Below are positions 1 to 51,921 of a stretch of 59,602 nt of DNA, one piece after another. Positions within the stretch are counted from its first letter, which is position 1, and every line of letters starts with the position of its first letter. The position numbers and the translations under genes are program-made. The DNA is from Kineosporia sp. NBRC 101731 (GTDB taxonomy: Bacteria; Actinomycetota; Actinomycetes; Actinomycetales; Kineosporiaceae), in contig NZ_BSTC01000025.1 in NCBI RefSeq assembly GCF_030269305.1, forward strand, positions 1-59,602, read 5' to 3'. The notes beneath the pieces were generated by a model. That model was not told where the DNA came from. It did no database searches and saw only the letters and a list, made by a program, of their open reading frames with translations.

Positions 1-3000
1 GGTCGGCGGCTGCTTCGGCGGGTGTGGAGACCATTGGTACGGCGGGTGCGGGTGCTGCGGGTCTGGGCGCGCTGGCCTTGATGAACAAGCCCAATGGTTT
101 CAACAAACCGGGCTGGTACACGAAGATCGCGGGCGGCGGCTCGGGCTCGGGCGGTAAGGGCGCGAGCGATGTGTCGGCGGGTACCTCGACGGGTGAGGGT
201 TCGGCGCCGGATCCAGAGGATCTCAAGGGCGGCTACGGCAGCAACGGCAACGGTGCGGTCGCTCCGCCTCCGGCCGTGCCGGGCGTGACCGTACCCCCGG
301 CCGTCAACGGCCAGGAGTCGGGCCAAACGACCGTCAATGTCAACGGCACCGTCCATGTCAACGGTTCCGAAGAGTCGTCCAGCCCGGAGTTCGCCGGGCC
401 GAGCCGAACGGACACCGGCAGCAGCGTGTCCTCGAACGGTTCGCAGGACAGTATTTTCGACTCCGAGCCGGGATCGGGCACGTCCACCCCGGCCAGCGTG
501 GTCAGCAGCACGGACTACACCGAGCTGCGCCACACCCTCGAGAACATCGCGCAGAATCAGGTGATACTGGGGCAAGGCACTTCCGGGAAGAACGGTTCTG
601 ATCGGCCGACCAACGGCGTTCCGCAACCCGTGGGCGATCAGAACGGGACCGGTGGCCAGAACGGAACCGGTGGTCAGAACGGGACCGGTGGCCTGAACGG
701 AACCGGTGGCCAGAATGGGACCGGCGGTCTGAACGGAACCCGTGGCCTGAACGGATCTGGCGGTCAGAACGGGACCGGCGGTCTGAACGGGACCGGTGGC
801 GAGAACGGAACCCGTGGCCAGAACGGATCCGGCGGTCAGAACGGGACCGCTGACCAGAACGGGGCCGGCGGGAACCGGTCCGCGGTCCCGGTCGGTCAGG
901 AGAGGCCTGGGTCTGCAACTCCCGCACCGGTGTCCGAACCGGTGGGCGCCTGGGCCCGGCAGCCGAACGTGACACCGGTGCCGGCACCTGAGGTGACCGG
1001 CGGGTCAGTGGTGACCTCACCGGGCATTCCTCAGCCGGTGACGCCGAACTCGCCGGTCGTCGCCTCGGCGCCGGAGGTCATGACCTCCCATGACGTGACC
1101 CCGGTGACCCCGGTGACCCCGGTGACCCCGGTGACCCCGGTGACCCCGGTGACCCCGGTGACCCCGGTGACCGTGCCCACAACGACCACGAACGGGCATC
1201 TCCCACCGGTCGTTCCGGGTGTGGCCGCGTCGAACGGCGTTTTCGGGCAGGTACCGGATGCGGTGAACGCACCGGTCGCGACCGGAACCGCCCCCGGCGT
1301 GCCGACACCGAACGGCACGACACCGAACGGCACGACACCGAACGGCACGACACCCGAGGCCGTCGTCACGGCACCGGTCGTTCCGGGCGTGGTGGCGTCG
1401 AACACCGTGCTCGCCTCGGTACCGGGTGCGGTGAACATGCCCACACCGGGTGGTGCGAGCACGCCCGGCGTGGTGCCGGGCGATCTCGGTCAGACTGCGA
1501 ACGGGGCCGTTCGGCAGACGGTTCCGGCGAGCTCCGGCATTCCGGCCATGCCTGCGGGGCCATCCCCCGATGCTGCCACCGCCCGTTCCGAGGTCAGCCG
1601 GTTCCTCAGCGACCGCCCGGTTCAGCCGCAGGCCACCGAGCCATCAGTGGCACTGCAACAGAACAACGCGCTGGACCTCATCCGGCAGGCCCACACGCTG
1701 ATGTACCCGGCGGCGGTGCCGGTCGTCCCGAGCGTGACGGATACCTCGTCCATTGCTGATTCGCCCCTTTCGCAGTCCCTGGGATGGAGGCCGGTCGGCG
1801 ATTCCTGGGACGGCGTGGTCCGGTCGGTCACCGAAGGAGAACACGGCACCACTGCCTTCGTGCACGCACAGACGCCCGGCCACCCGGGCCAGGCTTTCGC
1901 CGCGGTCAACTGGAAAGGGCAGGTGGTGTGGACGGAGCTCCAGGCCCTACCGGGGGAGCAGATCCGTACCCAGACCCAGACGCCCCCGGTCCCGGTCGCT
2001 GCCCAGGCTGTCGTGGTCACGAACTCTGGTGCCGTGGCCTCTGTTCCGGTCCGACCGAACGTCGTCGAGGGGCAGGGAACACCGGTCGTCCCGCCGAACG
2101 TGCGACCGCAGCCGACCGGTGGCGTGACCGCAGGTACACCGGGTACGGACGCCCACACCGGCAGCGTTCCCTCACCAGGCCTCACCGGTCCGGAGATCCC
2201 GCCGGTGATCGTTCCGGAACCGGTCGGCCAGATCTCCACCGCGCCCGATCCACTGGTGGTCGAAACACCTTTGGCGCAGGAAGCGGCCCCGTCCTCGGCC
2301 CCGTCGCCGGAGCCGGAGGCCCCGGCACTCTCGGACATTCCGGGACAGCGGCAGCTCGTCCCGGCACCCTCGTTCATCGCACCCGATCAGGTGCAGCTGC
2401 CGGACACGCTGCCCGTAGCTCCGCCGGCCTGGAATCTGCCGGCGGTCTCGCAGGCGCTGTCGTGGTTGCCGGAGCCGATTCGTGGCGTCGAGATGGACCC
2501 GGCCCGGCTGCAGGAGGTGAAAACTTGGTGGGCCGGCTGGAAAGCGTCCACCCAGGAATACCTCGGCACCATCGCTGATCAACGGCAGGTGCGGGAAACC
2601 CAGCAACTGGCGAAAGACATTGTCCAGCAGGGAGCGCGCGTCCGAGGGAGCGTGGTGTCCTCGTCGTACGGCCTGGGTGCGCGGCTAGAGACGGACTTCA
2701 ACTCCTTCGTCTCGGCCGTGCTGCTGGCCAGTGACGAAACCGGGAGCGCACAGACCACAGCGGAGACTGTGGGCGAGGTTCGGGAGATGGTGCAGCGGCT
2801 GGTTCCGTTGCTCGAGCACGACACCAACGCCCTGCCCGGCGGTGCGGTCGGTATGGAAGCGGAGTTCAAGTACACCCTTTCGTACTCGGACCGGTCTTTT
2901 GACTCGGCGGGTAAGGCCGTTCTGGTGGACAGTCCGTATTTCGCGTTGCACCTGGACACCACTGCTATCGCGGGTGTCAAGAAGGCCATCGCCGAGGTGG

Positions 3001-6000
3001 TGCCCAAGCCGGTGAACGTTCTTCGCGGCGAGACGAGACACCTGAGGCAGGCGGACATGCGGGCCGCCGTCGAGGACGCCGCGAAGCGATTGGCGAAGGC
3101 GGCGGCCAAGGCCACGAGCAGCGGGAAACCGGTGTCGCTGACCGATATCTTCCCCAGCTCCAAGGGATATCAGCACAATTACCCGAAGGCCGGACTCGGG
3201 ATCAGCGGTGGCGTCGGCATGCCCGGAGTGCAGTTCACGGCGGGGGTGTCGGTTCCGGCAGTTCGTTCGATGACCGCACTGGCGATCGAGAAGGCCGTCG
3301 GGCAGGAAGGGCGTGCGACCGAGCATGCCCGGGCCGCCATGACCTTCGGCGACGCGATGGCAGCGAAGTATCTCGGGGTCGAGCTGCCCTCGATCGAGTC
3401 CGGAGACCGGGACGTGGTGCTGCAGCCAAGCGATCAGCCGGATGCGGCGGTGCTGCGCAACTACATGACCTATGCGTACTCGCAGCTGGCGCCGGTGCAG
3501 GGCTATCTGTTGCTGAAGCCGAACATTCCCAGCCGGGGGCTGCTGAAGGACGAGCTGCTCCTGGCCAGCCGCACCGACGTCGCTGAGGTCCGTCAGTCAT
3601 TGCCGCCGGCCGTGCAGCGGTGGCTGGACGACCACGCCGATTCGGTGCGTCAGGAATTCGTGGACCATTTCCGGACCTCGAACGCAGACGAACTCGTGTA
3701 CCAGGATCTGATCCGGGACGAGTCCTTCGACATGACGTCGCTGCGCCGGGAGGCGAAAGACTTCTCGGTCCGGCAGTTCATCGACAACGCGCTTCTGACG
3801 AACCCGGAAAAGCTGATCAGTCAGGCTCAGGCCTACGGTATGACCAAGGGCTTCGAGAAAATGGATCCGCACTTCGGCGCGCGGTCCGACCTGCCGCTGA
3901 TCCTTCTCGAGTTCCGCGACTTCGGCGTGGTCACCTACCTGAGCGATTCCTTCGTGCTGTTCGACGATCTGGTGGCTGCGTCCCGGGCGTCCGACTGGGA
4001 GGCACGGCGGATCGCCGGGCTCCAGGACCCTCAGGTCGAGGTGTCTTTCGAATCGGGCCAGGGAAACATGTCGGAGTTCGCCGAGCCGGAACTGAAGGCG
4101 TTCGCTGCTCATGCGGCGACGCTGGTCCGGTCGGGGCAACCGATAGCGATCACCGTGGAGGGCGGCGGCAACGGCGGGACGCTGGGCAACGCGACGAAAC
4201 GCGGTGCTCAACGGGCGCATGCGGTCGCTGATCTTCTGCGCCCGCAGTTGCGGGACGCGCTGTCGGCGCGAGGACTGTCCACTTCCTCGATCGAGGTGCG
4301 GGAGATCTCGCGGGGTGACGGGAACACCAGCGGTCCGTACAAGTTCTCCGACGGGCCGATGGAGGAGCAGCGGCGTCGGGTGCTGGTCTGGGCGGAACCA
4401 CTGACGGCGGTGCCGGGTACGCGGGGTCTGCCGGGCGGCCGGATGCAGCCGCTGACCCGGACCCAGGATGACGACACGGTCCAGTTCGTACCGACCGATC
4501 CTGCGACGGTTGTGCCTGAGTCGATCAAGCTCCCGGAAAACCTCCCGGAGCCTCCGCGGGACTGGAACGTCGCAGCGGTCTCCACGGCGTTGTCGTGGTT
4601 GCCGGAGCCACGGCCGGGCGGTGCCCTTCACCCGCGACGGGTTCAGGAGCTGCGAACCTGGTGGGACAGCTGGAACACGGCTGTTCGCGACCACCTCGAC
4701 GGGATCGCCGATCGGCAGGAGGTGGGAGCGGCCCGGCAGACGGCCCGGGACGTGGTCCAGCAAGGTGCCGGAGTGCGGGGCAACGTGGTGTCGACGTCGT
4801 ACGGAGCCGGACGGAAGCTGCTGTCCGACTTCGAGTCGTTCGCTGCGGCCGTGATGCTGTCGACCGGTGAGGCCGGTACCGCGCAGACCACGGCAGACGT
4901 CGTGGGTCAGGTCCGGGAGACCGTACGGCGACTGTTCCCGCTGCTGCAGCACGACGCCAACCGTCTGCTCGGTGGTGGCCAGGACGAAACCGCCGTGGAG
5001 GCCGGCCCACGTTCCATGGAGATGGGGCCGAGGGGCGGCGCCGAGTCCGTTGTCACGGTGGCCAATGCGCCGTCCCCGGAAGCCCCGGCCCAGCAGAATG
5101 ACAGCAGCGACGGTGACAGCACCGACGGGAGCGATTCCGGCAGCGAGAGTGACGGCAGCGAAGCCCCCTACGAACCGGATGACTTCCGGCGCATGGAGGC
5201 TGACGAGTTCCGGCAGATCTCGTCGGAAATCGCGTCGCTGAGTCAGGCGGAGACCGCCGGTGATCCGAAGGCGGTGAAGAAGGCCCAGGACCTACTGCGG
5301 AGGTCATACTCCCATTACCTGGGGCGTCTCAGCGAGATCGTCCGTGATCTCCGGGACGAGCGCGCCGATCGCGAGGGTTACCACGACCAGGATTTCGATG
5401 TCGCTCTGAACGAGCTGAACGACAAGCGCCAGCAGGCGTGGGCCCAGATGCTGGGGCTGGTGCCGAAGGGAGAGACAGCTGTCCTGCCGGTGGGGAATGC
5501 CTATCGACCGGCGGAATTTGACGACGTCATCGACCGGTTGGCACAGCTCCCCCCGGATCGGCGACCGGACATCAGGATCGACCAGGGCGACCGGTCCTGG
5601 CCACTGCCGGACTGGATCGACCGGAGCCTGGCTCCCGATCTCACGGATATAGCACAGGTGAAGGGCATTTCGGCGGTGGACGATGCGCTGTCGCGGATGT
5701 CGCCGCCCCCGGATGCCTCGCCGCTCACCACCCAGGCTCTCGGTGTAGCGGCCCAGGCCTTGACCGGGGACCTGCGCGCGGCCCGGGACGCTGCGGACAC
5801 CAAGGTTCGAACCGTTCAGGAATCCCTGGATCGCAGGGCCCGGACGGCGCTGAAGTTCCCGGACCTGAAAGGGTTGGGACAGAGCGTCCGGACGGGAACC
5901 GCGCTGGATGCGGCCAGGCAGGCGCTGCAGTACCGCGACGGGCAGTTGTCCGCGGCCGAGAAGCTGGTGGCGGCGGGCGCGGCATCGCCCTCCGGGCCAC

Positions 6001-9000
6001 CGGGTACGTCTCTGACGCCGGAGTCCGTGTATCACCCCGTTCTCCTTGACGACCGCTGGATGGTGCAGCTGACCTCCGACGGCAGCCTGGTGCTCGCCAC
6101 GCCGGGCACCTATCCGAGCGACCAGCGGGCACAACCGGAAGCCGGTCACCTGGCCCAGCACGTGGCCGCGCTCACCGGCCTGCCGGTGACGGCGCTGACC
6201 GTGACCGAGGGCGTGCAGCGACCGGCGTGGCTCACGTTCCCACCGGACGGTACTCGTCCGGAACTGAACGACGTACCGGAGCCCACCACCAGAAAACCCT
6301 TCGTGGAGACCGTTCTCAGCCCTGATGGCTGGGCCGGGGACACCGGGACGCCCGGCTTCGTGATGCGCCGGGGAGCCACACCGGGCACGCCCGAGGTGGC
6401 CTGGCGGAACGAGGCCGGCGAGGTCACGGTCGCCGACGGATCCCGTGCTGCGGTCCGGCGCGACCTGGACAGCTTCCTGGCCGAACACCGGGACGAGCTG
6501 AACGGTGCCCGGTTGCTGATCTCGGATCTGCACGAGTACGCCGCCAGTGGTCTGAGCGGCAAGCACGGCATCGATCTCGTCTTCTCCGCCGAACCACTGG
6601 TACGGGGGGCCGAGAACGGTCTCCAGGTGCGTCCTGTCCCGGAGACCGACGTGCTGCGGGGCTGGCTGCGAGCCACACCGCCGGCCGACGGTACGGGGTC
6701 GGCCACGGTCACGGTCGAGGGCGGCGCTCTACATCCGACTCCGAAATGGGAGTCGGACTCGTTCACGAAAACCCTGCCCGAGTCCTTCGTGGTGCTGGAC
6801 TCGCAGAAGGTCGAGTACGTCCTTCACGCGCGCCGGATCCCCTCTGGCGTGCTCATTTCCGATCAAGCGGGCGGCTCCCGGGGTACGGATCAGGGCACAC
6901 CGGCCGCCGACGGGCTCACGGTCACCTACGACATCCTCGACCCGAAGCTGAAAACGCTCGCCCAGGAGGCCTTCGCCAAGATCGCGCCCTGGCTCGACGG
7001 GGTGGACAAGCACGATTCGAAGACCCCGGAGCTTCCGCCGTCCTACTCACGGGCAGGGCGACAGCCCTTCGGTGAAGGGCCCGCGCAACGGGCACCGATG
7101 ACGACGACGGGCCCCCAGGCTCCCCAGATCGACCAGACCCGGCGTGACAAGACGCCCTTGCAGAGGATCAGTACCCCCGGCAACAACTACCGCAACAATC
7201 CGGACGCCCAGCCGCTGACCTGGTGGCCGCAACTCTCCGGACCGGCCGGGGTGACCGGACTGCCGAAGGAGGTCGCCGCACATCTGGTCCGGATGATCCC
7301 GAAGGTGGTGCCCGGTGTCGCCGGGCGGGCGAAGCGGGTCAAGGACGTCCACGCGCAGCTCACGGCGTACCTGGACGCACTGCGGACGGAACCGGGCATC
7401 GGTTCAGACCTGAAGCCGGTGATCGACCGGATCGAGCTGGGCCAGGAAGTGAAGAAGCGGTTCGCGTTCTACGAACCGTTCCCCTTCCAGGCCCGGGTCT
7501 ACCGGACGCCAGGGCAGCCGACCGTTGTCGAACTGGAGACCACTCTCAAGTACCAGCCCCACGAGTCGGTGACCAAGCGTCAGCTGAACGATCTGTGGGA
7601 GCGGGACAAGGCAAGTCTGCTGGATGCCTGGAACACGACAGGTCCCGTGACGTTCAACGGCGAGACCGTCTTCGTCCGGATGCGGGCCGAACGCGTTCTG
7701 GACAACGGGACGGCGGACCACGTCATGCATGTCTGGCCCCGGATCACGGCGGAGGGTCACAGGCTCGGGGAGGACTCGTCCAATCTCGCGGCTGACTCCA
7801 CGGGGTTGGTGGTTCAGCACGAACGTGGGCATCTCGTGGGTCTGCCGGACCGGTACTCGACCGCGACCGGCCAGTCTTCCGACCCTCTGCGCAACCCGAA
7901 GCTGCCCATTCGCCCGTCCGGTCAGTCGGGCGACCCGCAGCGACCGGTGGTGCGGGGAACGACCTATCTCGACGCCAAGGGCGCGCTCATGTCCGAAGCC
8001 AAGAACACGGTGACAGCGCGCGACCTGTTCATGATTCTCGAAGCGGTCGAGGCCGGCGATCAGGGGCCGCAGACCCGGCAGAGGCTTTCCCAGGAACGGT
8101 TCCAGCGGGTCGTGGCTCCTGCTGTTCAGCGGCTGGAACAGGTCAAGAAGGAGGTGGACGCCGGTTCGGCCACCCCGGCGGACCTCCGGGCGGCGGGGGA
8201 AGCCCTTCATCGGGCCTGGATCACCCAGGCACGGCAGCTCCGGCGCCTGCGTCAGCCGCTGGCCCCGTCCACCGGACGTCCGACGACCCACCCGGCCGAG
8301 ATCAACCAGCGGGTGCGCGAGCGGATGCGGCTGGACGAGGAAATCGCCCTGGCCGAGGAGCAGGTGCTGAGAGTGGCGGCCGAGGCCGGTCTGCCGGTCA
8401 TCACCGAGTCCGGTGGCGGGCGACTGACCCTCTCGCCCTCCGGGCGGGAATACACCCTGGACTGGGCGGGTCACCGGGGTCGGCCGACGCCGGCCGAGCT
8501 CAACAAGCTGGCCACCGGCCTGGGGAAGACGGTGGAGGTGGAACTGTTCCCGGCGGGTGACGCGGCGTCCGCCCAGCAGTCCGCCGCTTCGCTGGCCACC
8601 CATGCTTCGGTCGGGCCGGAAGGCAATCCGGCACCCCTCATGAGCGGTATCCGACATGGCTGGTACGCCGCAGCAGCGCCGGCGGCCAAGCCGAGCCTGT
8701 TCGCTCCGCAGCCGTCAACGGCCACTCTGTTCATGGGGGCGCCGCCTCCAGCGAGCCTGTTCGCACAACCCACGTCCACTGCCGGGCAGATCACCCCCGA
8801 TCCGTTCGATGCCGCGAAGTTCACCCTCCACGGCTCGATGATCGAAGTGGTGTTCTCCGGTCTGAAGATCACGTTCCCTCAGCAGGGACACCCCGGGTAC
8901 TCCCCGAAGCACGAGCCCATGGTGCCCGGCGAGTTCCAGATCCACGTGGCCGATCTGAAGACCACCACCCATGACCAGCGCGTGGTCGTGCGTAAGGTGC

Positions 9001-12000
9001 TCCGCGCCCTGGATCCGGCGCTGCTCGACCGGACAGTGGTTCGTGGTCTGGACTACCGAAAGAGCGGAAAGGCCTGGATCCAGGGAGCTCAGCTGTCCGA
9101 CCCGGTGCCGCCGTCGGACGCCATCAGCACCGCCGGAGTGTCTTCTCCGGCGGGCACCACCGTTTCGCCGATGCGTGGGCAGGGCACGGCAACGCAGCTG
9201 GACGGACTTGGCTTCGGAGCCGACGGCCTGCCGAAACCCGTGATGAGGCAACCGATGGCCGATCACGGTCGGCCGGACCCGAGCGTCTCGGATCTCGATG
9301 AAAGTGCGGGCAGCATCGAGATGATTGATCTTTCCGGGCGGGGGGATGTTCAGAGGCCGACCGATGCGGATGCCGGTACGACGCCTGTCCTGGATACGTC
9401 CGCCCGGCCGGTGACCGATCCCTCCGCAGAGACGACCGCGACCGGATCCCTGGTCCCCCCGGTCCCATCGGTCCTTGGGGAGGAAAGCGTCGAAGGTACG
9501 CAGGATCCGGAGACCGACCGGTCAGCGACGCCTTCGGTGCCGGAACAACAGATCGGGTCCACCTCGGACGCGGTGGTGGTGGATCCTGCCCGGGAGGACG
9601 AGCCGGCCATCCCGGTGACGCCTCGACCGACGGCCTCCGAGGCGCAAACCGATTCCGGGATGACCGAACCGGTTTCCCTGGAGCCAGAATCGGGCGATCC
9701 CGCATCGTCCTCAGTTCCGGAGGAGCCAGCCGAACGGCTGGTGACCCGTGACGACGCAAACCTCTCGGAGACCAAGGAAGCAGAGATCGTCTCCACCCCG
9801 GAGGCGGAGACGGTGACGGACGTCCAGAGGCCTCAGATCGAGACGGAACCCGACCCGGAGGTGGGGATCAGGCCCACGACCACGTCGGAGCTCAAGAACG
9901 AGCCGGAACCTGAGGCCGGACTCTGGGCTGAAGCCGAAGTCGAGGGGGATGCCCGGCCCGAGCTGAAGACCGAGCCGACGACCGAGCCGACGACCGAGCC
10001 GGGCGGCACGACGGAGCCGGCAACCGGGACGAACAGCCAGGCCGAGTCGACGCCAGAGATCGAGACCAGAGCAGAGCCGGAGGCGGATTCCGAAACCACT
10101 GCCCAGGTCGAAACTGTCGAACCTCAGGGGGAGAGTGGGCTCGAGGGAGACATCCAGCCTGAGCTCACGACCAATCCGGGGTCGACAACCCATCCTGGTG
10201 GCCGGACCGGGTCGAGGGCAGGGACCGAGTCCGGGGCCGAGAAACTGACCGGGGCCGAGAATCTGACCGGGATCGAGACCGTGTCCGGGAGCGAGAACCA
10301 GGCCGGAACGAAGGTAGAGGGCGAGCCGGAGACCCCGGTCATGACCCGCACGGATGGCGAGCCGAAGTCCGAGATCGAGATCGAGCCGGCACCCGTGCTC
10401 GGGCTGGGGGCCGAAGCGAAATTCAGGGACCGGACTTTGTCGGTCGGTGAGACCGCAAAGAAGTCGGATGCGGAGACCGGACCCGAGACAAAGGTGAAGC
10501 CCGAGACCGGGCCGGAGCTGGAAGTCATTCCGGAGAAGGAGTTCACGGCAGAAGGTGAGCCGGAGACGCAGCCTGAGCCCGAGACCGATCTCGAGACTGA
10601 ACTGAAGACCACGCCTGAGGTCGAGGTGACGCCGGAGCCGAAGGTCGATCAGAAGGTGGAGACGCAGGCGGAGTCTGCGCCTGCGGTGTCGCCGGAGCTG
10701 AAGAGCGATCCTGAGGTGGAGACGCAGGCGGAGTCTGCGCCCGAGGTGTCGCCGGAGCCGAAGGTTGATCCTGAGGTGGAGACGCGGCTGGAGTCTGCGC
10801 CTGAGGTGGTGCGGGAGCCGAAGGTTGATCCTGAGGTGGAGACGCGGCTGGAGTCTGCGCCTGAGGTGTCGCCGGAACTGAAGGTCAACCCGAAGGTGGA
10901 GACGCAGCGGGAGACGGTGCCCGAGGTGTCGCCGGAACTGAAGGTCGACCCCAAGGTGGAGACGCAGCCGGAGACCGACCCTGAGATCGAGGTGGAGACC
11001 GAACCGGAGACTGCGCCCAAGGTGCAGCCGGAGCCGGAATCCAAGACCGCGGAGACGGAATCGAAGACCAGGACCACGTCGGACCAGGACGGGACCAGGT
11101 CGACGCGGGAGAGGGACGAGGTCACCCCGCCGGAGCAGGACCTGACCGACGATCCGCGACCCGAGCACCGGGACACGATGTCCACCACGAACTCGAGGCG
11201 GAGGGACACCGGGTCCACGGTAAGCTCGTCGAACAGCGTGGACACGGCGGCGACCAGTACGTCCGGGAGCTCCCACGGTTCCCGGACCGGGCGCGACCAG
11301 GTTTCCCCCTGGTACGTGAAGGTTCTCAACGGGTTGCGCGATCTGGGGCGGGTCTCCCCGGACCGCGAGGTGCTGCGCAAGCCGTACCCCAGCCTGGGGG
11401 CACAGCCCCGCGGGCCCCGTCCGCGGCACCTGGAGAACCACCTCTCGCACCCGCGGGCCATCACCAGTCTCACCCCTCAGGCCACGGACCGTCTGGGTGA
11501 TGCCCGTTTCCCACCCGGCACCCAGCCCTCGGCCAATGCGAACGGTGCTCGGGCCCGGCTCCAGAACCTGACCGATGCCCAGCGCAAACGGGTTCTGAAG
11601 GTCGCCGACGAGGTGATCGCCGAGCGGCTGGCCTGGTCCGGCACCGATCCCCAGGACGCCGCCCGGGCGTCGAAGAGCCGTAACCTGCGGGACCTCGTGG
11701 CCGAGACGCTCGTCATCGAGGCCGGCCGCAAGTGGCGGGACACGGAGCTGGCGGCCACGCTGGTGATCGACAGCCATCTGAACGGGATCGAGCTCGCCCG
11801 GGCCCAGGTGCCGGGGACCTCGTCGGTTCTGCCTCCCGTACCCCGGGTCGAGATCACTGACGTCGATGCCGACATGGGTGGGGATCGGTCACAGACCTCG
11901 CAGATCAGCGAGACGTCCGATCCCACGCGACTGACGCCCGACGTCTCCCGCGGTAAGGCCGTCGACCGGTCCGACCGGGACAGCATCCATCCCGAGCCGG

Positions 12001-15000
12001 AGACGGACCGGGAGATCGAGAGCTTCTCCCTGACACCGGAGGAGTCGGCCTGGATCAAGCGGTCCGGGGATTCCCGGAGGGGCGGAGGCTCGAAGGTGGG
12101 GGAGAGCTCCGGGTCGAGGGGGACCTTCGGGTTCGGCGAGACCCTGACGGTCCCCGAGACACCCGAGTTCGGCGAGACGCCGATGGTCGATGAGATGCCC
12201 ACGATCGATGAGATGTCTGAGATCGGTGAAACCTCCGGGACTCCCGCCGTCGACGTCCCCCGTTTCGAGGTCACCGACCCGGCCGGGGACGTTACCGAAC
12301 TCAAGCAGGATCCCGATCCCGAAACTCCCGAGCCGGCACCGGTACCGCCGGAGGTGCGCACCCCGATCGAGCCGCGGGACGCAGCCGAGGTGCACTCGCT
12401 CGGCACGCCGCGCTCGCGGCTGCCCGACATCAACCGGGTGGTGGACGAGGCGCTCACCGCGGCGGAGGCCGCCGGCGCCACGGTGCCCACCGATCTGCGG
12501 TCCAAGCTGCCGGCCCGCCTGCTGTCGGCCTCCCGCGGACTCGTCAGCAGCGGATACCTGCTGGAGCTGCCGGGCGCCAAGATTCCCGGGGTCGAGGTGC
12601 TGGTGCAGATGCGTCCCGGCAATCCTCGTCTGGTGCAGAACCCGGCCGGGGTGACCCGGGCCGTGCCCACCACGGGGACGAACCTGGAGACCATTCCGGA
12701 GGACGGGACGCCCAACCCCTTCCACGCCAACCAGAACACCCACGGCGTGTTCAACACCGGTGGTCACAGCCATGTGAACTCGGGACAGGCGGGTGCTTTC
12801 CGGATCAACGGAACGGCGGGAGCGGTGTTCGCCGGACTGGTGAAGGGAAGCCTCACCGTGTCCGGGACGGCCGACCAGACGAACGTCTCGACCTCCGCGT
12901 TCAAGGATGCCGAGTCGGGCCGGGTGATGGACAACCGGGGTGACTCGACCATGGTCGCCTACGACGCGAACTGGACGGTGCGGGTGCGTACCGATCCGAG
13001 CATCCCGTGGGACTCGATCACCCCGAGCTGGAGCAGCGACCCCGACGATCCCGGCCCGGACGGAGCCGTGGCGACCGTCAGTGAACCGTTGCTGACGTAC
13101 GTCCCCAATGATCTTCTGCGCGAGGGTGGGGCTCAGGTCACCGCGGTCGCGCCCGCGGACGGGGAGTTGGCCCGGACCCTCTCCGAGAACCAGAAGCGAC
13201 TGCCGGATACCTATTTCGCTTCCGGCATGACCAAGCTGACGGAGCTGCAGGACCAGATCACCGACGAGTTGCGCGCCCAGGGGGTCGACCTCAAACCCGA
13301 CAGCTACGAGATGCTGCAGCTGCAGGAGCAGATCGTGCGGTACAACGCGAACCTCGGTCAGGCGATGAACACGCCCGAGGGTTCGGAGATCCTGCTGCGC
13401 GACAAGGCCGGTGAGGTGATCGCGCAGGTGGCGCTGCACTCGGAACGGCTGGCCGGGCAGGTGGAACGGCTCGGGCGCACCAGTGAGGTCATGCACATCG
13501 AGCGGGTGCGCACCGCGATCGCCGGCAGCAGTGCGGGCGAGACCCTGACCAACTCCAGTGGGGTGAGCGCGAGTATCAGCGGTGATGTGTCACCGGTGCC
13601 GGGCACCGTCATCGGGCCGTCGGCGAAGGTCGGTATGAGCTGGAACAACTCCGATTCCGTGAGTGCGGGCAAGACCGGCCTGTGGGTGCTCGTGTCCCGG
13701 TTCACCGGGCCGGCGGCCACGTATCGCGCGGGCCTGCACCACACGGCGACCGTCTCGGTGGCCAAGCGTCCGGACGCCCTGCCCCGGCAGACTCTCGGGG
13801 TGGACGGGCACGCCGTGCTGGTGCTGCCCCAGGGAGAAGCGTTCCGGCACGGGTTCCCGGTGGACGAGTCGGCCCTGGCCCCCGGGTTCACGGCGACGAA
13901 CGGCACCATCGCCTTCGATCCGGCTGCGGTGCTTGACAATCCGAAGACCGTGCAGCCCGAGACGTCACCGCCCCTGCCGGCCCACGTGCGTGAGGGGCAC
14001 GGCATCGGTACCGGTCTGACCCGGGCGCAGGAGTCGACGTCGAAGTCGCTGAACGACCAGATCACCTCCGAACTGGGCCGTACCGGCTTCCTGCCGCCCG
14101 ACCCGGGAAAACCTTTCTCGCAGAAGGCGCCGAAGCGGGGCAGGTATCGCAAGCTGATCGCCGAACGGATCAAGATGGCCAGGAACGACCGGCTCGAGAA
14201 CATCCGTCTGATCAAGAAATTCACCTCCACCGACGCCCTCGACTCGCACCACGACCAGATTCACCAGGACGGACTGCAGTTCACGGTCCGCGGTCTGAGC
14301 CCGCTGGGCGTGACCCGCAATGCCCGGGTGACGATCCGCGCCGAGCAGATCCTGGAACCGGGCAAGGACTACTTCCGGGGCCGGGTCTCGGACGCGCACA
14401 GCGTGAACCTGTCGATCTCCTCGACCAGCGCGGGGCACTCGGCGTCGGGGTCGAAGAGCCTCACCGGCGGGGTCCGCGCCAACGTCGGGGTGAGCTGGGC
14501 CCAGATGATCGGTGCCGGTGTCGATCGGCAGCGAACCGTGGGGGCCGGGCAGTCCGGCACCTTCATCGGGAACCGGCCCGAACTGCTGGAGTACCCGGGT
14601 GATCTGGATACCTACGCCCTGCCGAGCCGGTACACCGTCACCATCGAGTACGAGAGCCTGTCCACCGCCGGGCGCAAGCGTCTACGGGCGATGTTCCGGA
14701 ACGGTTCCCCGCAGCAGAGGCTCGCGCTGCAGGAACGCCTGGCGGCCAAGGCAGACCGCCTGGCGAGCGTCCGGAGGGGCCTCGGCGGCGGGCAACCGGG
14801 AGGGCCGACGGCCGATCGGGCCCAGGCCCGCGCCGATGCCCACCACCGGCTGGCCGCTCACTACCGCCAGGCGATCGCTGCGGCGCAGGACGGGCTGACC
14901 TGGACCGGCCCGCCGGTCGACGGTGAGTCCCTCGTGCACCTGAACCCGGCCTTCGGGCTGCCGGACTTCGACCCGGCCGGTGACTTCGGGGGCCGCCCGG

Positions 15001-18000
15001 ACACCGATCCGTCGCTCATCGACGAAGGGCTGATCTACCACCTCGACACCAAGGGCCTGGTGCCCCTGGCCCAGCAACTGCAGGCCGAACTGACCGGCCC
15101 GGGACAGCCCGGTGACGAGCAGGTGTCGAACCTGGCCGGCAACGTCATGACCCGGTCGTTCTTCAAGGAGATCCTGCGCGACGAGTACCAGACGGGGCAG
15201 CTCTTCCAACCACGCCTGTCCGGGCATTACCGGCACGCCGGTCTGGGCGTCGCGGCGTCGGTGGGCCCGTCGGTGTACGCGGGCTCGACGAAGGACCAGT
15301 TCACCTCGGGCCTGATCAAGCTGTACCTGTCGCAGGCCAGTGACTCCGAGACCGTGCAGAACGACTGGGTGGTCAACGCGGGCGTGAAGTTCGGCCAGGC
15401 TCTCGGGGACAGCGCCGACGGCGCGGTCGGTACGGTCGCCGGTGAGGTGGGCGGGACGATCCGGGACGGTCGGCAGAAGGGCAAGTCGTTCGCCCGGACC
15501 GGCGGTAAGGAACTGCTGCAGCTCGACTTCCACCGGGCCTACGCGTTCGCCGCCCCGGCTCACCTGACGGTTTCAGCGGTGGACGAGATCCACGGGAAGC
15601 TGCGCCCGACCCGGGTGAACGTCGCCGATTCCCAGACCCTTCCGCCGCGCACGATGATGTACGTGCTGCCGGAACCGAAGGCCCTCGCGGCCTACGGGCG
15701 CGATCAGGTACCGATCGACGTCGCGGATGTCCGCAACGCGCTGGAGCGCTGGAGCAAGGGTGAACTGCCCGGCATCGACGACAGCGTGGTGACGTCGGTG
15801 CTCGACCGGCTCGAGCGGGACACCTCTGATCACGAGCAGAACGTCGTCATCGCCGCGGAGGTGAGGCAGTACCGGGAGAACACCGGGGTGTCGAACCTGG
15901 ACACGCACCTGCAGGCGATCGGCCGGACCCGGGCGGACCTGACGATCCCGGAGTACCTCACCAAGAACGGCCAGAAAGCTTTCGGCCACAGTGGTATCGA
16001 GTCGATGAGCTATCACCCGGTCAAGGAGACAACGGACCCGAAGGCCACACCGGCCGACGGGACGACGGTGACGACCGGCGTTCCGGCCCCCAGGGTCTCG
16101 GCCGTGGAGCTGCTGCACCGGGCGATCGAGGACGCGGCTCCCGGTCTGGTGGGTCTCCAGCGCAAGGACTGGGACCGCGCCAAGGCGCCCGAGGTCTGGT
16201 ACCGCACGGTGAAGAACGACAAGCCGGTGCTCGGCCGTCTGTCCGGGGGTATGGACTTCGTGACCGGTCTGGTCGCCGGGGACCGCGACCATCAGATGAC
16301 CGAGGATCTGCTGCACACCGAGGGCGTCTCGTTCTACCTGGTCAACCGGATCGGCGGGGTGCTGGCCGACGTGGTCGAGCTCAACCTCGGGCTGGAGATC
16401 ACCTCGAAGCCGAAGATCACCGGGTACACCCTGGGAACCGGTCTGGAGAACTACGACCACGCCTACTCCGGCGTGACCAAGTCGTCCACGCACCATCTGT
16501 CCGGCGGCGTGAGCGCGAGCAAGATCAGCCTGGGCGGCCGGGACGCCACCAGTAAGACCTCCGGTGGTGGGGGCGTCGACTTCGGGGCGGGCCGCCACCG
16601 GGGGGTGAGTCGCGGTGACCAGATCACCGAGGAGCAGACCGCCTACGACTGGACCGGTCACTACACCGCCGAGGTGGATCACCGTCTGACCGTGAAGACC
16701 CGGCGGCTCGACATGGCCGGCCGCCCGCTCAACAACCTGTTCGCCGGCGCCTACCGTCGATCGATCGACAAGGCCGCCCCGCAGGTCACCCGGTACGAGG
16801 GGGCGACCGTGATGCAGTTGCCGCGTTCCCTCGTCGAGGGCGTGCCCGGCACCGCCTCCGACCGGCCCGACCCGGACGACCTGACCCGGGTGCCGGAACT
16901 GCCGAACGACGCCTACGTCACCACCGCGCTGATCGACGAACTGGTGCCGGCCGGGTGGGAACTGATGGGCCGGATGTTCGGCGCGGACGCCAACGACAGC
17001 ACGGTGCGCTCGTCGATCACGCTGCAGCAGCTGGAGTCCCGCAGCCACCTGAAGAACCACCTGATGGAGGCGCTGGGCGGCAAGCGGTATCAGCTGGCCT
17101 CGAACCTGTTCCTGCCCGGCCACTCCTCCGACCGGGCGGCCGTCTACCTGAAGGGCGACCTCTTCCACCTGGAGAAGGTCGAGGACATGCCCACCGGTAC
17201 CGGTACCGGTCGCTACGCCAAGCACCAGATCGGCACCACGGCCTCGAACACCGCGGACACCTGGCAGCCGACGCTGAGCGCCACGATGAGCCAGAGCGGT
17301 GAAGTGATCACGAAACCGGACGGCCTGCTGGACGCCTCCGGCTCGACCGCGGTGAACCGGCTGGTGGCGAAGGGTGAGGGTGCCCGCGACACGGTGAACA
17401 AGCGCGACGAGCAGCACGTCAAGCAGCAGGGCCCGATGGTCCTCGTGAAGGCCACGTTCAAGGGACATCTGGAGGCCGAACTCACCAGCCACGAGTTGTT
17501 CCGCAGCTACGGCACCGGAGTCATGACGTCGGACCCGGTGATGGGCGACGTCTACATCGAGTTGGGCGTCGAGGAGTACGAGGATCTGCGTGCGGAGATG
17601 AACAACAGCGTTCTGCCGCCGAGAGGGAGCGACGGTGCCTGGTCGCTGCCCGGCCCGAACACCCCCAGCTACCACCTGGACGAGATGGCCCAGCGGGCCG
17701 GGCAGAACGCCGACCACGACCTCGCGATCGCCCACGAGGTGGCCCGGGGCCTGAGGTCGCACGCCCGGTCACAGCAGATCGAGCTCACCTCCTCGGCGGC
17801 TCACGCGGCCCACAGCCGCTGGCTGGCGGCTCACCAGTGGGCGGTCAAGGCCCTCTCCGCGGAACACGGCCGAGAGGCGTCCCGGCTGAAACTGCTGCAG
17901 GTCCGGACCGGCCGCGATCTGCAGCAGTCGATGCTCGGTGACACTCCGCCCCCGGTCGAAGACATCGACAAGCTCAACCAGCTCGTCGACGAGATGCTGG

Positions 18001-43657: not shown

Positions 43658-46600
43658 CTACACCTCGGCCGTCTCGGGAATCGGTGCCATCGCCGTCTGG
43701 ATCAGCCGCCCGCCGCGCCGGGTGAGCAGCTGGGCCCGCCCGGGGGGCAGGTGCCGGGCCTTCACGTTGCCGAGCAGTGGACCTTCGTTCGGCGGGCAGG
43801 ACAACGCCAGGTCGGGGGTGTTCAGCTCCTGCATCCGGCGCAGCACCGGGTCCATGGACATCCGCATCACGCCGGCCGCGGACCGGGTGAGCACCATGTG
43901 CAGCCCGATGTCCCCGGCCTGCGGCAGCAGCGGCACCAGGTCGGTCAGCGGGTTGTCCATGCCGGCGATCAGGTCGTAGTCGTCGATCAGCAGGAACAGC
44001 AGGGGGCCCTTCCACCAGTCGCGGCGGCGCAGCTGGTCCGGGGTGACCTCGGGTCCGGGCAGGCGGGGCTTCAGACCGGCGACGGCGTCCTGGGCGGTGG
44101 CCCGGGTGCTGTCCAGGGAGACCGAGTAGCCCAGCCGGTACTCCTCGGGGATCAGGTCGAAGAGCTCACGGCGGTAGTCCACCGCCATGATCCGCGCCTC
44201 CTTGGGGGAGTAGCGGGACAGGATGCCCCGCAGAATCACCCTCAGCATGTTGGTCTTGCCGCTCTCGGTGTCGCCCAGCACGGTCAGGTGCGGCTGGGCC
44301 CGGAAGTCGTGCCACACCGGCTTGAGGTGGGTCTCGTCCAGTCCGATCGCGATCCGCATGTCACCCTCGACCGGCGGGAGCTGGTCGACCGGCAGCTGCA
44401 TCGGCAGGGTCCGTACCGGGCGCACCGTCGGCCCGGTCCAGCTGTCCACGGCGGACGACACCAGATGCCGGGTGCCCTGGGCCAGGTCGTCGGCCGTGCC
44501 CACACCGTCGATCCGGGGCAGCGCCCCGATGAAGTGCAGTTTGCTGTCGGTCAGGCCGCGGCCGGGCTTCTTGGGCACCTGCGCAGCGGCCCGCAGGTCG
44601 ATGCCGGACTCCACCGCGTCACCCAGCCGCAGTTCCAGGCGGGTGCCGATCTTGTCGCGCATCGTGTGGTGGATCTCCGACCAGCGGGCCGCGGTGAGCA
44701 GGATGTGGATGCCGTAACTCAGGCCCCGGCCAGCGATCTCGCGTACCTGGGTCTCGGCCGCCTCGAACTCCTGGCGCAACGTGAACCAGCCGTCGACCAC
44801 CAGGAACAGGTCACCGAACTGGTCCTCGACCTGACCGGTCGCCAGCAGCTCGCGGTAGGCCGCCATCCCGGCCACGTCGTGCTCGGCGAACTTGCGCTCC
44901 CGCTCGGTGAGGAGCGAGGAGACCTCGGCGATGGTCCGGTTGATGCGGTCCGGGTCGTGCCGGCCGGTCACCCCACCCACGTGCGGCAGGTCGGCGATCG
45001 CCGACAGCGAACCACCGCCGAAGTCCAGGCAGTAGAACTGCACCTCGCGCGGGGAATGGGTGAGTGCCAGACCGGTGATCATGGTGCGCAGCAGGGTGCT
45101 CTTGCCGCTCTGCGGGCCACCGGCGATGCCGGCGTGCCCGCCGACCCCGGACAGGTCCACCACCAGCAGGTCACGGATCTGCTCGAACGGCTTGTCGATC
45201 AGGCCGACCGGCACCTTCAGGGTCTGGCTCGGATCGGTGTCCACCGGCCGCAGACCCCGTTCGGGGTCGGGCAGCAACGGCGGCAGCACCTGGTCCAGCG
45301 TGGGCGGCTGGTCCAGCGGCGGCAGCCACACCTGGTGCGCGGGCGGGCCCTGGTCGAACAACCGGGCAGCGAGCACCGACATCACCGACGACTGCAGCGG
45401 CGCGGCCACGCCCTCCTCGTCGTCCTCCGACGTGCTGCGCTCCACGACCTCCGGCTCGGCCGGCTTCGCCACCGGCAGGTAGGTCACCCCGTACGGCAGC
45501 ACCTGGCTGGCGATCACCTCCTGCCGGATCTTCGCCGAGCGCAGGCGGTGCGGGCCGGAGACGTAGGCGGCCTTGAACCGGGTGATCGTGGCGACGTCCG
45601 AACGCAGGTAGCCGTTGCCCGGAGCGGACGGCAGCTCGTAGGCGTCCGGCACACCGATGACCGAGCGCGACTCCATCGCCGAGAACGTGCGCAGGCCGAT
45701 CCGGTACGAGAGGTGACCCTCCAGCTGGTGGATACGGCCGTCGTCGAGGCGCTGCGAGGCCAGCAGCAGGTGCACCGCCAGCGACCGGCCGAGCCGGCCG
45801 ATCATCACGAACAGCTCGATGAAGTCGCCGTGGGTCGCGATCAGCTCGCTGAACTCGTCGACGACGAGGAAGAGGGTGGGTAGTGGGTCGAGTGAGGCAC
45901 CCTTCTGCCGGGCCCGCTCGTAGTCCCGGACCGAGCTGAAATTGCCCGCCGACCGCAGCAGTTCCTGCCGGCGCACCAGCTCGCCGCTGAGCGCGTCGTG
46001 CATCCGGTCGACCAGCGCGGCCTCGTCGGCCAGGTTGGTGATGGTCGCGGACACGTGCGGCAGATCGTCCAGACCGGCGAAGGTGGCGCCACCCTTGAAG
46101 TCGACGAGGACGAAGTTCAGGGTCTCCGACGAGTGCGTCGCCGCCAGCGCCATCACCAGTGTGCGCAGCAGTTCGCTCTTGCCGGAACCGGTCGCACCGA
46201 TCAGCATGCCGTGCGGGCCCATGCCGTCCTCGGCCGACTCCTTGATGTCCAGCTCGATCGGCGAACCGTCGGCCGCCACCCCGATCGGCACCCGCAGCCG
46301 GTCCTTGGGCTTGCGTGACGACCAGACCGGCCGGGGGTCGAAGGCCTCCAGGTCGTTGATGCCCAGCAGCAGCGGCAGGTCCAGGTCGGCGCTCAGGCCG
46401 TCCTGCTGCTGCTGTTCGGCCGCCCCCACCCGGGTCGAGTGCGGAGCCAGCAGCCGCGCCAGCGCATGAGCCCGGCGCAGCGACAGGCCGTCGGGGGAGC
46501 ACAGACGGGTGCGCACCTCACGGCCCACCCGGTCCTTCTTCACCATGTCGACGTCCGTCGCCGTCACGTCGAGCGTCAGCACGCCCCGGCCGGCCATCTC

Positions 46601-47692
46601 GGCGTGACCGTCCAGGTCGATCATCACCGCGTTGCGGTACCCGGTGGCCAGGAAGCGGGCCCCGGGCGGGATCCGCCCGCCGTCGTTGATCACCACGACG
46701 AACGGTTCGTCCCGCGAAGGCGTCGCACCCGACTCGAACTTGGCGCGTTCGCCGAACGGCTGGCCGAGCATGCGCTCGACGTCCTCCAGCGAGTCGCCGA
46801 ACAACCGCACCGGCCCCGCCGCGTCCACCGAACTGACGTGCTGGGCGTGCGGCAGCCACTTCAGCCACGTCCACTCGTCCACCGTCTGCTCCGAGGTGCA
46901 CACCGCCAGCAGCACCTCGTCGGGAGCGTGGAAGGTGACCAGCTGGGCCAGCAGCGCCCGGATCAGCCGCCGCGCGTCGTCCTTCGATCCCTTGTCACTG
47001 CCCACCCGGATGTGGGCGAAACCCCGGATGTACAGGGCCACCGGCTGGTCCGGGATCATCGTGTAGGCCTTGATGAACCGGCGCAGGGCCTTCGCCGCGA
47101 TCGGCTCCAGGTCTTCCACCGGCTTGGTCTGCAACGGCGTGATCCGCACCGCGAGCCGCTGCGAGCCGTACCCCACCCGCAGCTCGCCGAAGTCCGGGTG
47201 CGCCGGTCGGCGCTCCCAGAGACGGCTCGTCATCGCCAGCGACCACAGCGACTCCGGATCGGGATGACGCCAGGCCAGGGCCGAGCGCTGCTTCTCCGCG
47301 AACGTGCGCACCTGACGGCGGCTCTGGGAGAGATAACGCAGGTAGTCGCGGCGGTCGCCACCGACCTGGTGCTTGCGGTCGCCACCGGCGGAGACCATCT
47401 GGCCCGCCGCCATACCGATCATGCCGGCGCCCATCATGCCCATCATCAGGTAGCTCATGCCGCCACCACTGCCGTTGTTGGTGTACATGAGCACCATGCC
47501 GCCGGACATGAGCATCATCGGCAGCACGGTCACCAGCATCCGCATCCCGGCCGGCTTGACCTCCGGCAGTTCGGGCGGCTCCTGAAGAGTGATCTCCCCG
47601 TGCGGCATTTCCGGCCCGTTACGGCGGGCGGGCCGGCGGAAGGGTACGGTCGTCACACCCCTCACACGGATGGACCCGGGCACAGCGCTCAC
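43658..47692 (-). CDS. eccC: Type VII secretion ATPase EccC (fused EccCa/EccCb)
   Basis: 1,344 aa membrane ATPase that powers ESX export and recognises substrates. The N-terminus has EMPHGEITLQEPPELPE, two Met-rich transmembrane helices (MLVTVLPMMLMSGGMVLMY and GMSYLMMGMMGAGMIGM, about 50-100), then three FtsK-like ATPase domains with Walker A sequences GATGSGKSE (about 497), GGPQSGKST (about 857) and GDTESGKTN (about 1139). Walker B is DEFSEL in the first domain but VDGW in the second and DDYD in the third, as is usual for EccC. Start chosen at GTG 47692; the GTG at 47656 (TTVPFRRPARRNGPEMP) is also possible. Divergent from eccD. Confidence 0.95.
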   Translation of the reverse strand: MSAVPGSIRVRGVTTVPFRRPARRNGPEMPHGEITLQEPPELPEVKPAGMRMLVTVLPMMLMSGGMVLMYTNNGSGGGMSYLMMGMMGAGMIGMAAGQMVSAGGDRKHQVGGDRRDYLRYLSQSRRQVRTFAEKQRSALAWRHPDPESLWSLAMTSRLWERRPAHPDFGELRVGYGSQRLAVRITPLQTKPVEDLEPIAAKALRRFIKAYTMIPDQPVALYIRGFAHIRVGSDKGSKDDARRLIRALLAQLVTFHAPDEVLLAVCTSEQTVDEWTWLKWLPHAQHVSSVDAAGPVRLFGDSLEDVERMLGQPFGERAKFESGATPSRDEPFVVVINDGGRIPPGARFLATGYRNAVMIDLDGHAEMAGRGVLTLDVTATDVDMVKKDRVGREVRTRLCSPDGLSLRRAHALARLLAPHSTRVGAAEQQQQDGLSADLDLPLLLGINDLEAFDPRPVWSSRKPKDRLRVPIGVAADGSPIELDIKESAEDGMGPHGMLIGATGSGKSELLRTLVMALAATHSSETLNFVLVDFKGGATFAGLDDLPHVSATITNLADEAALVDRMHDALSGELVRRQELLRSAGNFSSVRDYERARQKGASLDPLPTLFLVVDEFSELIATHGDFIELFVMIGRLGRSLAVHLLLASQRLDDGRIHQLEGHLSYRIGLRTFSAMESRSVIGVPDAYELPSAPGNGYLRSDVATITRFKAAYVSGPHRLRSAKIRQEVIASQVLPYGVTYLPVAKPAEPEVVERSTSEDDEEGVAAPLQSSVMSVLAARLFDQGPPAHQVWLPPLDQPPTLDQVLPPLLPDPERGLRPVDTDPSQTLKVPVGLIDKPFEQIRDLLVVDLSGVGGHAGIAGGPQSGKSTLLRTMITGLALTHSPREVQFYCLDFGGGSLSAIADLPHVGGVTGRHDPDRINRTIAEVSSLLTERERKFAEHDVAGMAAYRELLATGQVEDQFGDLFLVVDGWFTLRQEFEAAETQVREIAGRGLSYGIHILLTAARWSEIHHTMRDKIGTRLELRLGDAVESGIDLRAAAQVPKKPGRGLTDSKLHFIGALPRIDGVGTADDLAQGTRHLVSSAVDSWTGPTVRPVRTLPMQLPVDQLPPVEGDMRIAIGLDETHLKPVWHDFRAQPHLTVLGDTESGKTNMLRVILRGILSRYSPKEARIMAVDYRRELFDLIPEEYRLGYSVSLDSTRATAQDAVAGLKPRLPGPEVTPDQLRRRDWWKGPLLFLLIDDYDLIAGMDNPLTDLVPLLPQAGDIGLHMVLTRSAAGVMRMSMDPVLRRMQELNTPDLALSCPPNEGPLLGNVKARHLPPGRAQLLTRRGGRLIQTAMAPIPETAEV

Positions 47693-47757
47693 CTGACGTT
47701 CACCCGAATCCAAAAGATTCTCGTGAACCGCCCGCCCCCCGGCCACGTGCAACGGGT

Positions 47758-49155
47758 ATGCCCGACACCAGCACCGGCGAGCTGTGCAGGCTCGTCATCA
47801 CCGGACCGACCAGTCAGGTCGATCTGTCGGTGCCCGTGCACGTGCCGCTCGCGGACCTCCTTCCCGCCCTGCTGCACGCGCTCGGCCCGGACCTTGCCGA
47901 CCGCGGTCTCGAACACAGCGGCTGGGTACTGCAGCGACTCGGTGAGACCCCGCTGGACGAGGACCTCACCGTCGACGAGCTCCACCTCGTCGACGGGCAG
48001 CACCTGCACCTGCGGCCCCGCTCGGAGCAGATCCCCCCGCTCGACTTCGACGACCTGATCGACGGCATCGCCGACGGCCTGGCCAACCGCTCGGGCCTGT
48101 GGCGCGTGGCCTGGACCCGGGCCGGCGCCCTGGCCGTCGCGGTCGCCACCCTGATCACCGGCGTCGCCACCCTGTGGTTCGAGGACGACTCGATCGCCCG
48201 CGCCGCCTTCGGCCTGGTCGCGGCCATCGCCCTGCTCAGCGGCAGCTGGCCGGCCGAGCGCCGCGCCCAGGACCGCACCGTCGCCGTCGTCCTGGCCGGC
48301 GGGGGAGTGCTCTTCGGGATCGACGGCGCGATCGGCCTGGCCCGGGCCTTCGAGCTCGATGCCGACATCGCCCCGGCCGTCACGATGTTCGCCGTCACCA
48401 CGCTGCTCGTGCTGACCGGCCTGGCCGCCATCATGATCATCGCACCGCGTCGCCCGGGCCCGTGGATCACCCTGGTACTGCTGCTCGCCGGACTGTGCCT
48501 GGCCACCGGCGTGCTACTGATCACCACCGACCTCAGTGACGCCCAGATCGGCACCCTGGCACTGCTTCTGGGAGCGGCCTTCCGGCCCTACGTGCCCAAC
48601 ATCGGATTCCGGCTGTGCAAGCTACGGCTGCCCGAACTCCCGGTCACCCCCGAGGACCTGCAGAAAGACATCGACCCCGAACCCGGCGCCGAGGTCCTCG
48701 ACGGCGCCACCACGGCCGACCAGTCGATGACCGCGATCTACGTCGGCATCGGCCTGGCCTCCGCCGTCGCCCTGGTCCTGCTCGCCGCCGAACCGGGCTG
48801 GCTGGGCCCCGCCACCGCCGCCGTCGCCGTCGTGCCGCCGCTGCTGGCCCTGCGGGTCATGACCAGCGCCTGGCACCGCCTGGCCCTCGCCCTGCCCTCC
48901 CTGACCGGCCTGGCCGCACTCGCGATCTGCACCGCGATGGACGCCAGCACCATGTGGCGCCTGGCGCTCGCGGCCGCCCTGGCCGCTACCGGCGCCACCC
49001 TGGCCACGCTCGGCCACACCCTGCCGCTGCGCCGCCTCACCCCGATCTGGGGCCGGATCGGCGATGTCGTGCACGTGATCGCGCTGGCCGCGCTGGTGCC
49101 GCTGGCCATCGGCGTCCTGGGCTACTACGCCCTGATCCGTTCGATGGTGGGCTGA
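47758..49155 (+). CDS. eccD: Type VII secretion channel protein EccD
   Basis: 465 aa: an N-terminal YukD/ubiquitin-like domain (1-85: LCRLVITGPTSQVDLSVPVHVPLADLLPALLHAL), then about 11 membrane helices from residue ~110 to the C-terminus. This pattern is specific to EccD, which forms the hydrophobic cavity of the ESX inner-membrane complex. It is one base from eccB (TGA, c, ATG) and divergent from eccC, with about 65 nt between the starts, so a shared bidirectional promoter is likely. Confidence 0.93.
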   Translation: MPDTSTGELCRLVITGPTSQVDLSVPVHVPLADLLPALLHALGPDLADRGLEHSGWVLQRLGETPLDEDLTVDELHLVDGQHLHLRPRSEQIPPLDFDDLIDGIADGLANRSGLWRVAWTRAGALAVAVATLITGVATLWFEDDSIARAAFGLVAAIALLSGSWPAERRAQDRTVAVVLAGGGVLFGIDGAIGLARAFELDADIAPAVTMFAVTTLLVLTGLAAIMIIAPRRPGPWITLVLLLAGLCLATGVLLITTDLSDAQIGTLALLLGAAFRPYVPNIGFRLCKLRLPELPVTPEDLQKDIDPEPGAEVLDGATTADQSMTAIYVGIGLASAVALVLLAAEPGWLGPATAAVAVVPPLLALRVMTSAWHRLALALPSLTGLAALAICTAMDASTMWRLALAAALAATGATLATLGHTLPLRRLTPIWGRIGDVVHVIALAALVPLAIGVLGYYALIRSMVG

Positions 49156-50527: not shown

Positions 50528-50656
50528 TGCGGATGTCGGGGACGGACTCACAGACCACCGGAACCTGCGTAAGCGCAGTGCCTTTCCGGAGAGGAGCCGG
50601 CGCTGCCGAAAGACGGTGCGACGGTGCGTATGACCCGACCAGGAGAGGAATTCGCA

Positions 50657-51890: not shown

Positions 51891-51921
51891 ACGGCCGGAC
51901 ACGTCAGGAGCGATGAGGGCG

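Follow-up and report, generated by a model that had tools for sequence, protein, structure and literature searches.

The complete contig NZ_BSTC01000025.1 of Kineosporia sp. NBRC 101731 (positions 1-59,602; contig C25 of genome G000, a draft of 8.26 Mb in 88 contigs), which we refer to here as the window, begins inside a gene of more than 18 kb, and this raises the question of what kind of protein a bacterium makes at this size and how such a chain might leave the cell. The answer that we favor, and that we consider probable while far from secured, is that an ESX (type VIIa) system exports this giant as a mosaic effector, in which some parts are proteolytic and others possibly act on membranes, export and activity being what we infer.

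The window holds the 3' part of the giant gene (3..18398, plus strand, stop codon at 18396-18398). The frame is open at the left because the contig begins within the gene, and from this edge it runs through 6,131 codons as one intact frame, in agreement with the more than 6,124 residues expected by the initial annotation. In 119 of 121 segments of 300 nt along the frame, GC content peaked at the third codon position, and residues 1-210, 504-648, 943-1386, 1722-3051, 3765-3933, 4124-4895, and 4962-6062 align in the same frame with paralogues or relatives. Because the codon-position GC is constant and the homology is in frame, we conclude that the giant frame is a genuine single gene rather than a frameshift fusion; no Pfam or NCBIfam family spans its whole length. 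The draft state of the genome and the contig edge inside the gene invite the explanation that the frame is a frameshift fusion or an assembly artefact, but we find this scarcely credible given the constant coding signal, the in-frame homology over much of the length, and the presence of frames of 9,292 and 5,413 amino acids with the same metzincin domain (see below) in the Kineosporia genome G005, which is a single contig.

The link to an export machine comes from the genus as a whole. We examined the upstream side of every Kineosporia frame of at least 5,000 amino acids with a PF25547 (WXG100_2) head, and these nine frames are preceded by a YbaB gene in 9/9 and by Ecc core genes in 8/9 cases. 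An ESX cluster, which the initial annotation overlooked, also spans 43.7-59.4 kb of the window. Family matches identify EccC, the FtsK/SpoIIIE ATPase of the ESX system (43658..47752, minus strand; also similar to the sibling EccC-EccD-EccB loci), and, on the plus strand as are all genes that follow, EccD with a YukD domain (47758..49155), EccB (49157..50527), and a WXG100 protein (50657..50977 from an ATG start, within the matched frame 50624-50977). Behind these lie a small protein of 96 amino acids (51030..51320) that is WXG100-like by size and place only, an ESX-locus protein of 134 amino acids that is conserved in K. babensis (71%; 51397..51801), and two paralogous, cysteine-free ESX-locus proteins of 1,139 (51913..55332) and 1,034 amino acids (55412..58516) without a Pfam family. 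In 6 of the other 9 giant loci, a match to the C-terminal end of the 1,139-residue protein precedes YbaB. The cluster ends with a YbaB/EbfC-family protein (58575..59018, family match), which we liken to EspL by family only, and a small protein of 116 amino acids (59015..59365) directly 5' of the next giant, of which the first 44 residues are seen from a GTG start (59470..59602) and which by synteny is giant g9 on contig C9. EspL of ESX-1, which has a predicted YbaB-type domain, has been proposed as a chaperone for ESX-1 substrates (PMC6319747).

To which of these machines might the studied giant itself belong? The first 127 bases of the window (1..127, plus strand) match contig C9 base for base over its first 127 positions, as an overlap at an assembly repeat, and encode the end of a shared N-terminal head, which the paralogy map extends over residues 1-47; the last 127 bases are identical to the beginning of contig C17 read on the opposite strand, and 127 looks like the word length of the assembler. 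These identities indicate a two-copy repeat that holds the N-terminus, with entrances at the right end of C25 and the left end of C17 and exits at the left ends of C25 and C9; no further pieces of the repeat were found in the assembled genome. As syntenic reference we used contig C12 of K. babensis JCM 31032 (genome G001; NZ_JAJOMB010000002.1, 675,347 bases), where genes like parts of the window at 19.7-43 kb are followed by an ESX cluster, a giant of 23,998 amino acids, and genes like those at 53-73 kb of C9; relative to this contig the window is inverted at 32-37 kb, a rearrangement. The gene order supports joining the right end of C25 to the left end of C9 and its giant g9 and, by exclusion, the left end of C17 to the left end of C25 and the studied giant. 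The residues encoded at the window's right end align to residues 11-47 of the 23,998-residue giant (15/37 identical) and the first residues of the studied frame to its residues 287-332 (24/46 identical), and in neither case did any of 300 shuffles reach the score. A small K. babensis giant fits both head ends likewise (0/300 shuffles each). Giant C3 of the studied genome fits only the first head end (0/300; 248/300 at the other), giant C3b behaves nearly as C3 (1/300 and 249/300), and in the same test giants C9b and C5 fit neither end. Because these alignments leave about 230 residues missing, the whole protein should be near 6,400 amino acids. Both flanks of the head that spans the gap align with a K. 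babensis head that scores PF25547; PF25547 itself matched neither C25 nor the start of C9, the middle of the head falling in the assembly gap. Because the two ends of the head that are seen are shared with g9, which sits behind the ESX cluster of the window, both giants probably use that machine.

Several observations weigh against this assignment. The ESX cluster lies 25 kb downstream, the studied giant is not directly behind any ESX cluster, and its head lies mostly within the assembly gap. Moreover, the first 20 kb of C17, the inferred upstream side, gave no match to ESX genes. This last result, together with the complete identity of the two heads, its own and that of g9, over the 127 bases visible at either end, would also suit an orphan or decaying relative that is no longer exported and has been retained through duplication of the head. 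We regard such a fate as very improbable, however, for a gene with 6,131 open codons, coding signal throughout, intact catalytic residues, and many conserved residues in its C-terminal body.

The initial annotation treated the giant as standing alone, but it is one of at least six in this genome. We searched a metzincin profile, A3, in Kineosporia and in 196 other genomes of the class. This genome has 15 copies, in frames of 17,664, 11,259, 10,965, 9,763, 9,741, 6,131, and 2,812 amino acids, the seventh and smallest frame carrying its domain at G000:C3:212563-213297. The six largest frames (6,131-17,664 amino acids) sum to 65,523 residues or 2.4% of the genome, a cost that implies an important role. 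All 6 Kineosporia genomes are positive, with 43 copies, of which 42 lie in frames of at least 2,783 and 39 in frames of at least 5,000 amino acids; among the 196 other genomes 23 have matches (E up to 0.001), many of them barely extending beyond the motif. Of 197 genomes, 69 have PF25547, for the most part in frames of lesser length, and at least eight frames in seven genomes (G057, G106 with two, G085, G184, G167, G086, and G193) combine it with the metzincin domain, the pairing being assessed from contig, strand, place, and frame length; the cases in G086 and G193 are weak. Giants C5 and C3b have an FtsK-type ATPase within ~10 kb that is 26-29% identical to EccC, and C3b has a YbaB match just downstream; EccB and EccD had no match near either giant. 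Giant C5 (G000:C5:33529-62817, L091-L093; 9,763 amino acids) has a partial match over cut-off to PF15644 (E 1.6e-8), a family of papain-fold glutamine deamidase toxins. Before giant C9b lies a gene for a right-handed beta helix, an AAA ATPase, and AAA_lid_6 (L026:7106-10471; G000:C9:232106-235471), which we take to be perhaps an EccA-like part of the ESX locus of that giant. The 23,998-residue giant of K. babensis (G001:C12:447972-519965; L049, L056-L059) has one cysteine. The small K. babensis giant (G001:C12:415307-424207; L054), which is cysteine-free, 2,967 amino acids long, and has a similar head, adjoins genes whose counterparts lie in the window at ~32-37 kb, where no such giant is present; the sites at which giants appear thus differ.

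Does the giant carry an enzyme? The initial annotation read a metzincin motif, and an HExxHxxGxxD-type motif indeed stands at residue 2606 (HERGHLVGLPD, residues 2606-2616, nt 7818-7850), followed by the Met-turn GALMS, in a metzincin-like domain of residues 2437-2761 (7311..8285, plus strand). HExxH and the acidic third ligand are kept in 25/26 copies; of these 26, 12 were chosen by motif and built the profile, and 13 of the other 14 keep the motif. The Met-turn Met is present in 19 of the 21 copies having that column, five copies lacking it. One copy in the 23,998-residue K. babensis giant has lost both histidines. By its structural model the fold of the domain is metzincin-like, 49 of 50 rows in the fold comparison being metzincins. 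Thus, the domain is like the metzincins (snapalysin, adamalysins, matrix metalloproteinases) in its HExxHxxGxxD motif, Met-turn, and fold, but differs from them in being embedded in giants and in reaching no family cut-off (TIGR03296, 20.5 of 110.8 bits; snapalysin, 12.7 of 300; Pfam M6, 11 of 22). On motif and model, we consider it a predicted zinc protease. A protease within such a chain might cut the giant into separate exported products, and one to several metzincin copies per giant, as well as linker and acidic stretches that would be accessible to cleavage, are in keeping with a self-processing polyprotein. Taken by itself this explanation is decidedly unlikely, as it leaves the β-body described next unexplained; self-processing could be one step in the action of an ESX effector.

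The C-terminal body of the giant consists of part 1 (residues 4124-4900; 12372..14702, plus strand), with long antiparallel strands and helical caps, and part 2 (residues 4962-5960; 14886..17882, plus strand), with additional, divergent copies of the same repeat. Part 1 is present in all 27 relative loci listed by the search, in 2 of which it is covered only partly, and part 2 in 26/27; the loci belong to Streptomyces, Micromonospora, Actinoallomurus, Streptacidiphilus, Actinomadura, Catellatospora, Actinocatenispora, Dactylosporangium, Actinacidiphila, and K. babensis (ten genera), and although many of their frames end at the locus boundary, 17 have at least 5,000 amino acids as seen. Many body residues are conserved among these relatives, and giant C3 shares the body with 48% identity over residues 4124-4895 and 4962-6062. 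Divergent repeats ~300 amino acids apart (among the best 30 matches listed, after dropping the first 14, whose overlap arises by construction) and the long strands in the model support the β-rich modules proposed earlier. The model of residues 4124-4900 (predicted local distance difference test score 85) has unusually long antiparallel strands, and its closest, weakly similar structures are barrel walls and perforins in the pore state. Five of the 27 loci together contain six metzincin copies. In L067, L078, and L088 the metzincin ends ~580-610 residues before the body, the same order as in the studied giant, where the distance is ~1,360 residues; in L081 and L090 it lies after the start of the body.

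Between head and body the giant is a mosaic, as the initial annotation held. A linker rich in Gly, Asn, Thr, and Pro (residues 48-787; 144..2363) contains tandem repeats at 639-868 (an 18-nt unit repeated in frame ~13 times), 1095-1172 (a perfect 9-nt unit, Val-Thr-Pro, 8.7 times), and 1303-1354. It is followed by a duplicated module, which had been noticed before and is confirmed as residues 788-947 (2364..2843) and 1499-1658 (4497..4976) with 52.8% identity; a module of residues 943-1386 (2829..4160), common with the C-terminal part of giant C3 (25% identity) and matched partially in 3/27 relative loci; a module of ~1,330 residues that includes the metzincin domain (residues 1722-3051; 5166..9155) and occurs three times, whole or in part, in g9 (27-33% identity); an acidic repeat stretch (10623..10985), likewise as first described, with a 60-nt period in ~5.8 copies (10623-10973) and 27% Asp plus Glu in residues 3501-3750; and a segment common with giant C3 (residues 3765-3933, 11295..11801; 36% identity), all on the plus strand. 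The paralogy maps show these modules again in other giants but arranged differently, which indicates that they have been shuffled. The OmpA-like domain of the initial annotation is not confirmed: the Pfam and NCBIfam scans gave no OmpA family even at E up to 1, a sequence search of the PDB matched no OmpA chain, and residues 1341-1475 look OmpA-like by eye only.

The studied giant has no cysteine in 6,131 residues, where ~51 would be expected from the 41 in 4,904 residues of ten other genes of the window. Giant g9 as assembled has none in 17,664, and the six giants, taken from the longest to the shortest frame, have 0, 0, 11, 8, 2, and 0, counted stop to stop so that some precede the likely start codon. 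Because the frames of the 27 body loci likewise contain only 72 cysteines in 145,105 residues, cysteine scarcity is a property of this kind of protein; it fits export of an unfolded chain that refolds outside.

We also considered that the giant might be a surface adhesin or fibre that is kept on the wall of the producer for contact or aggregation and in which the metzincin only trims. Giant adhesins likewise show repeats, linkers, and long β-modules, and the Pfam and NCBIfam scan found no toxin family over cut-off in the studied giant. However, wall-anchor families were absent from the general scans, in which no search was aimed at anchors or signal peptides; the metzincin active site is kept in 25/26 copies; and sibling or related giants bear toxin-family domains, namely PF15644 in C5 and a lonely_Cys match (below cut-off) in a Streptomyces plasmid giant. 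We consider an adhesin unlikely. The earlier reading of an exoprotein acting as contact or effector protein is supported in part, and gains a genomic link to ESX and the toxin-family domains of related giants.

Our working hypothesis for the ESX effector is as follows. The N-terminal helical head of the WXG100_2 kind would address the chain to the ESX machine, and a YbaB-type chaperone may assist its passage, by analogy with CpnT export. The cysteine-free chain would be exported unfolded and its body would refold outside, with the long flexible linker and the acidic stretch spacing the modules. The metzincin may then cleave a target or the giant itself, and the long-strand body may contact or enter the envelope or membrane of another cell. 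In this scheme, the studied giant and g9, with heads identical where seen and differing bodies, would be two warheads on one address. A bolder proposal, tentative and in our judgment unlikely, is that ESX in Kineosporia and scattered actinomycetes exports single, nearly cysteine-free chains of 5,000-24,000 residues that form a one-chain β-barrel pore or needle; type VII address, zinc proteases, and tandem long-strand modules would then make up a one-molecule device for injection or perforation in Gram-positive bacteria, acting on the envelope of a neighbor. More generally, the genus-wide pattern of one ESX cluster, one YbaB-family protein, and one giant connects very large bacterial proteins, a class that has received little study, with a known export machine. 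If type VII systems do export chains of 6,000-24,000 residues, the picture of small helical substrates would be too narrow. Cysteine scarcity over tens of thousands of residues, the metzincin, and the long-strand body offer handles for biochemistry.

As for the remaining surroundings, ten frames to the right of the giant were scanned; where a family was matched, it points to an ordinary enzyme, a transporter, or a carbohydrate-binding protein.

How does the giant compare with known systems? Zhang et al. 2012 (PMC3482391) describe actinobacterial proteins of gigantic size that bear several toxin domains. The studied giant resembles them in its length in the thousands of residues and its actinobacterial host, but shows no toxin family over cut-off in the Pfam and NCBIfam scans. 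The giants of that study are alike in being gigantic (some >10,000 amino acids), actinobacterial, and multi-domain including metallopeptidases, with a toxin-like architecture. The domains named for them are anthrax-lethal-factor-type peptidase, caspase, OTU, ART, and MCF1-SHE, and no match to any of these scored in the studied giant; conversely, a different metzincin-like domain, a long-strand β-body, near-zero cysteine, and the ESX-YbaB-giant layout in siblings set the present proteins apart from what is described there.

CpnT of Mycobacterium tuberculosis resembles these giants in its WXG100_2-family head (PF25547 in sibling giants and the K. babensis relative), long linker, and variable C-terminal part. 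We take the PF25547 model to represent the N-terminus of CpnT, and the studied giant is presumably some eight times the size of CpnT. It differs from CpnT in its body and in that no NAD-glycohydrolase family was recognised by Pfam or NCBIfam. A further likeness is that small Esx genes lie nearby in the sibling loci; CpnT itself is exported by ESX, its export being reported to depend on ESX-4 and the WXG100 pair EsxE/EsxF.

The lonely Cys giants of Streptomyces (NF012197) form a third point of comparison, as their plasmid relatives have the β-body too. The body is present in Streptomyces plasmids (5 records); the three giants examined there have 8,748, 4,645, and 19,673 amino acids, and two of them are directly followed by a lone7para_assoc (NF033532) gene. 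One plasmid giant of Streptomyces, SAT1, ends in a match to NF012197 (E 7.1e-52; 176.8 bits, cut-off 200); this family had no match in the studied giant at E up to 1, and none in the 6 Kineosporia genomes in a search whose control was also silent. In the literature searched we found no description of the ESX-YbaB-giant layout, of this metzincin domain, which falls outside known families, of the long-strand body, or of the cysteine scarcity. Because giants were noted in 2012 and NCBI families already name lonely Cys and type VII-associated proteins, the kind as such is known; we conclude that the layout and the domains are new within this known kind of giant proteins.
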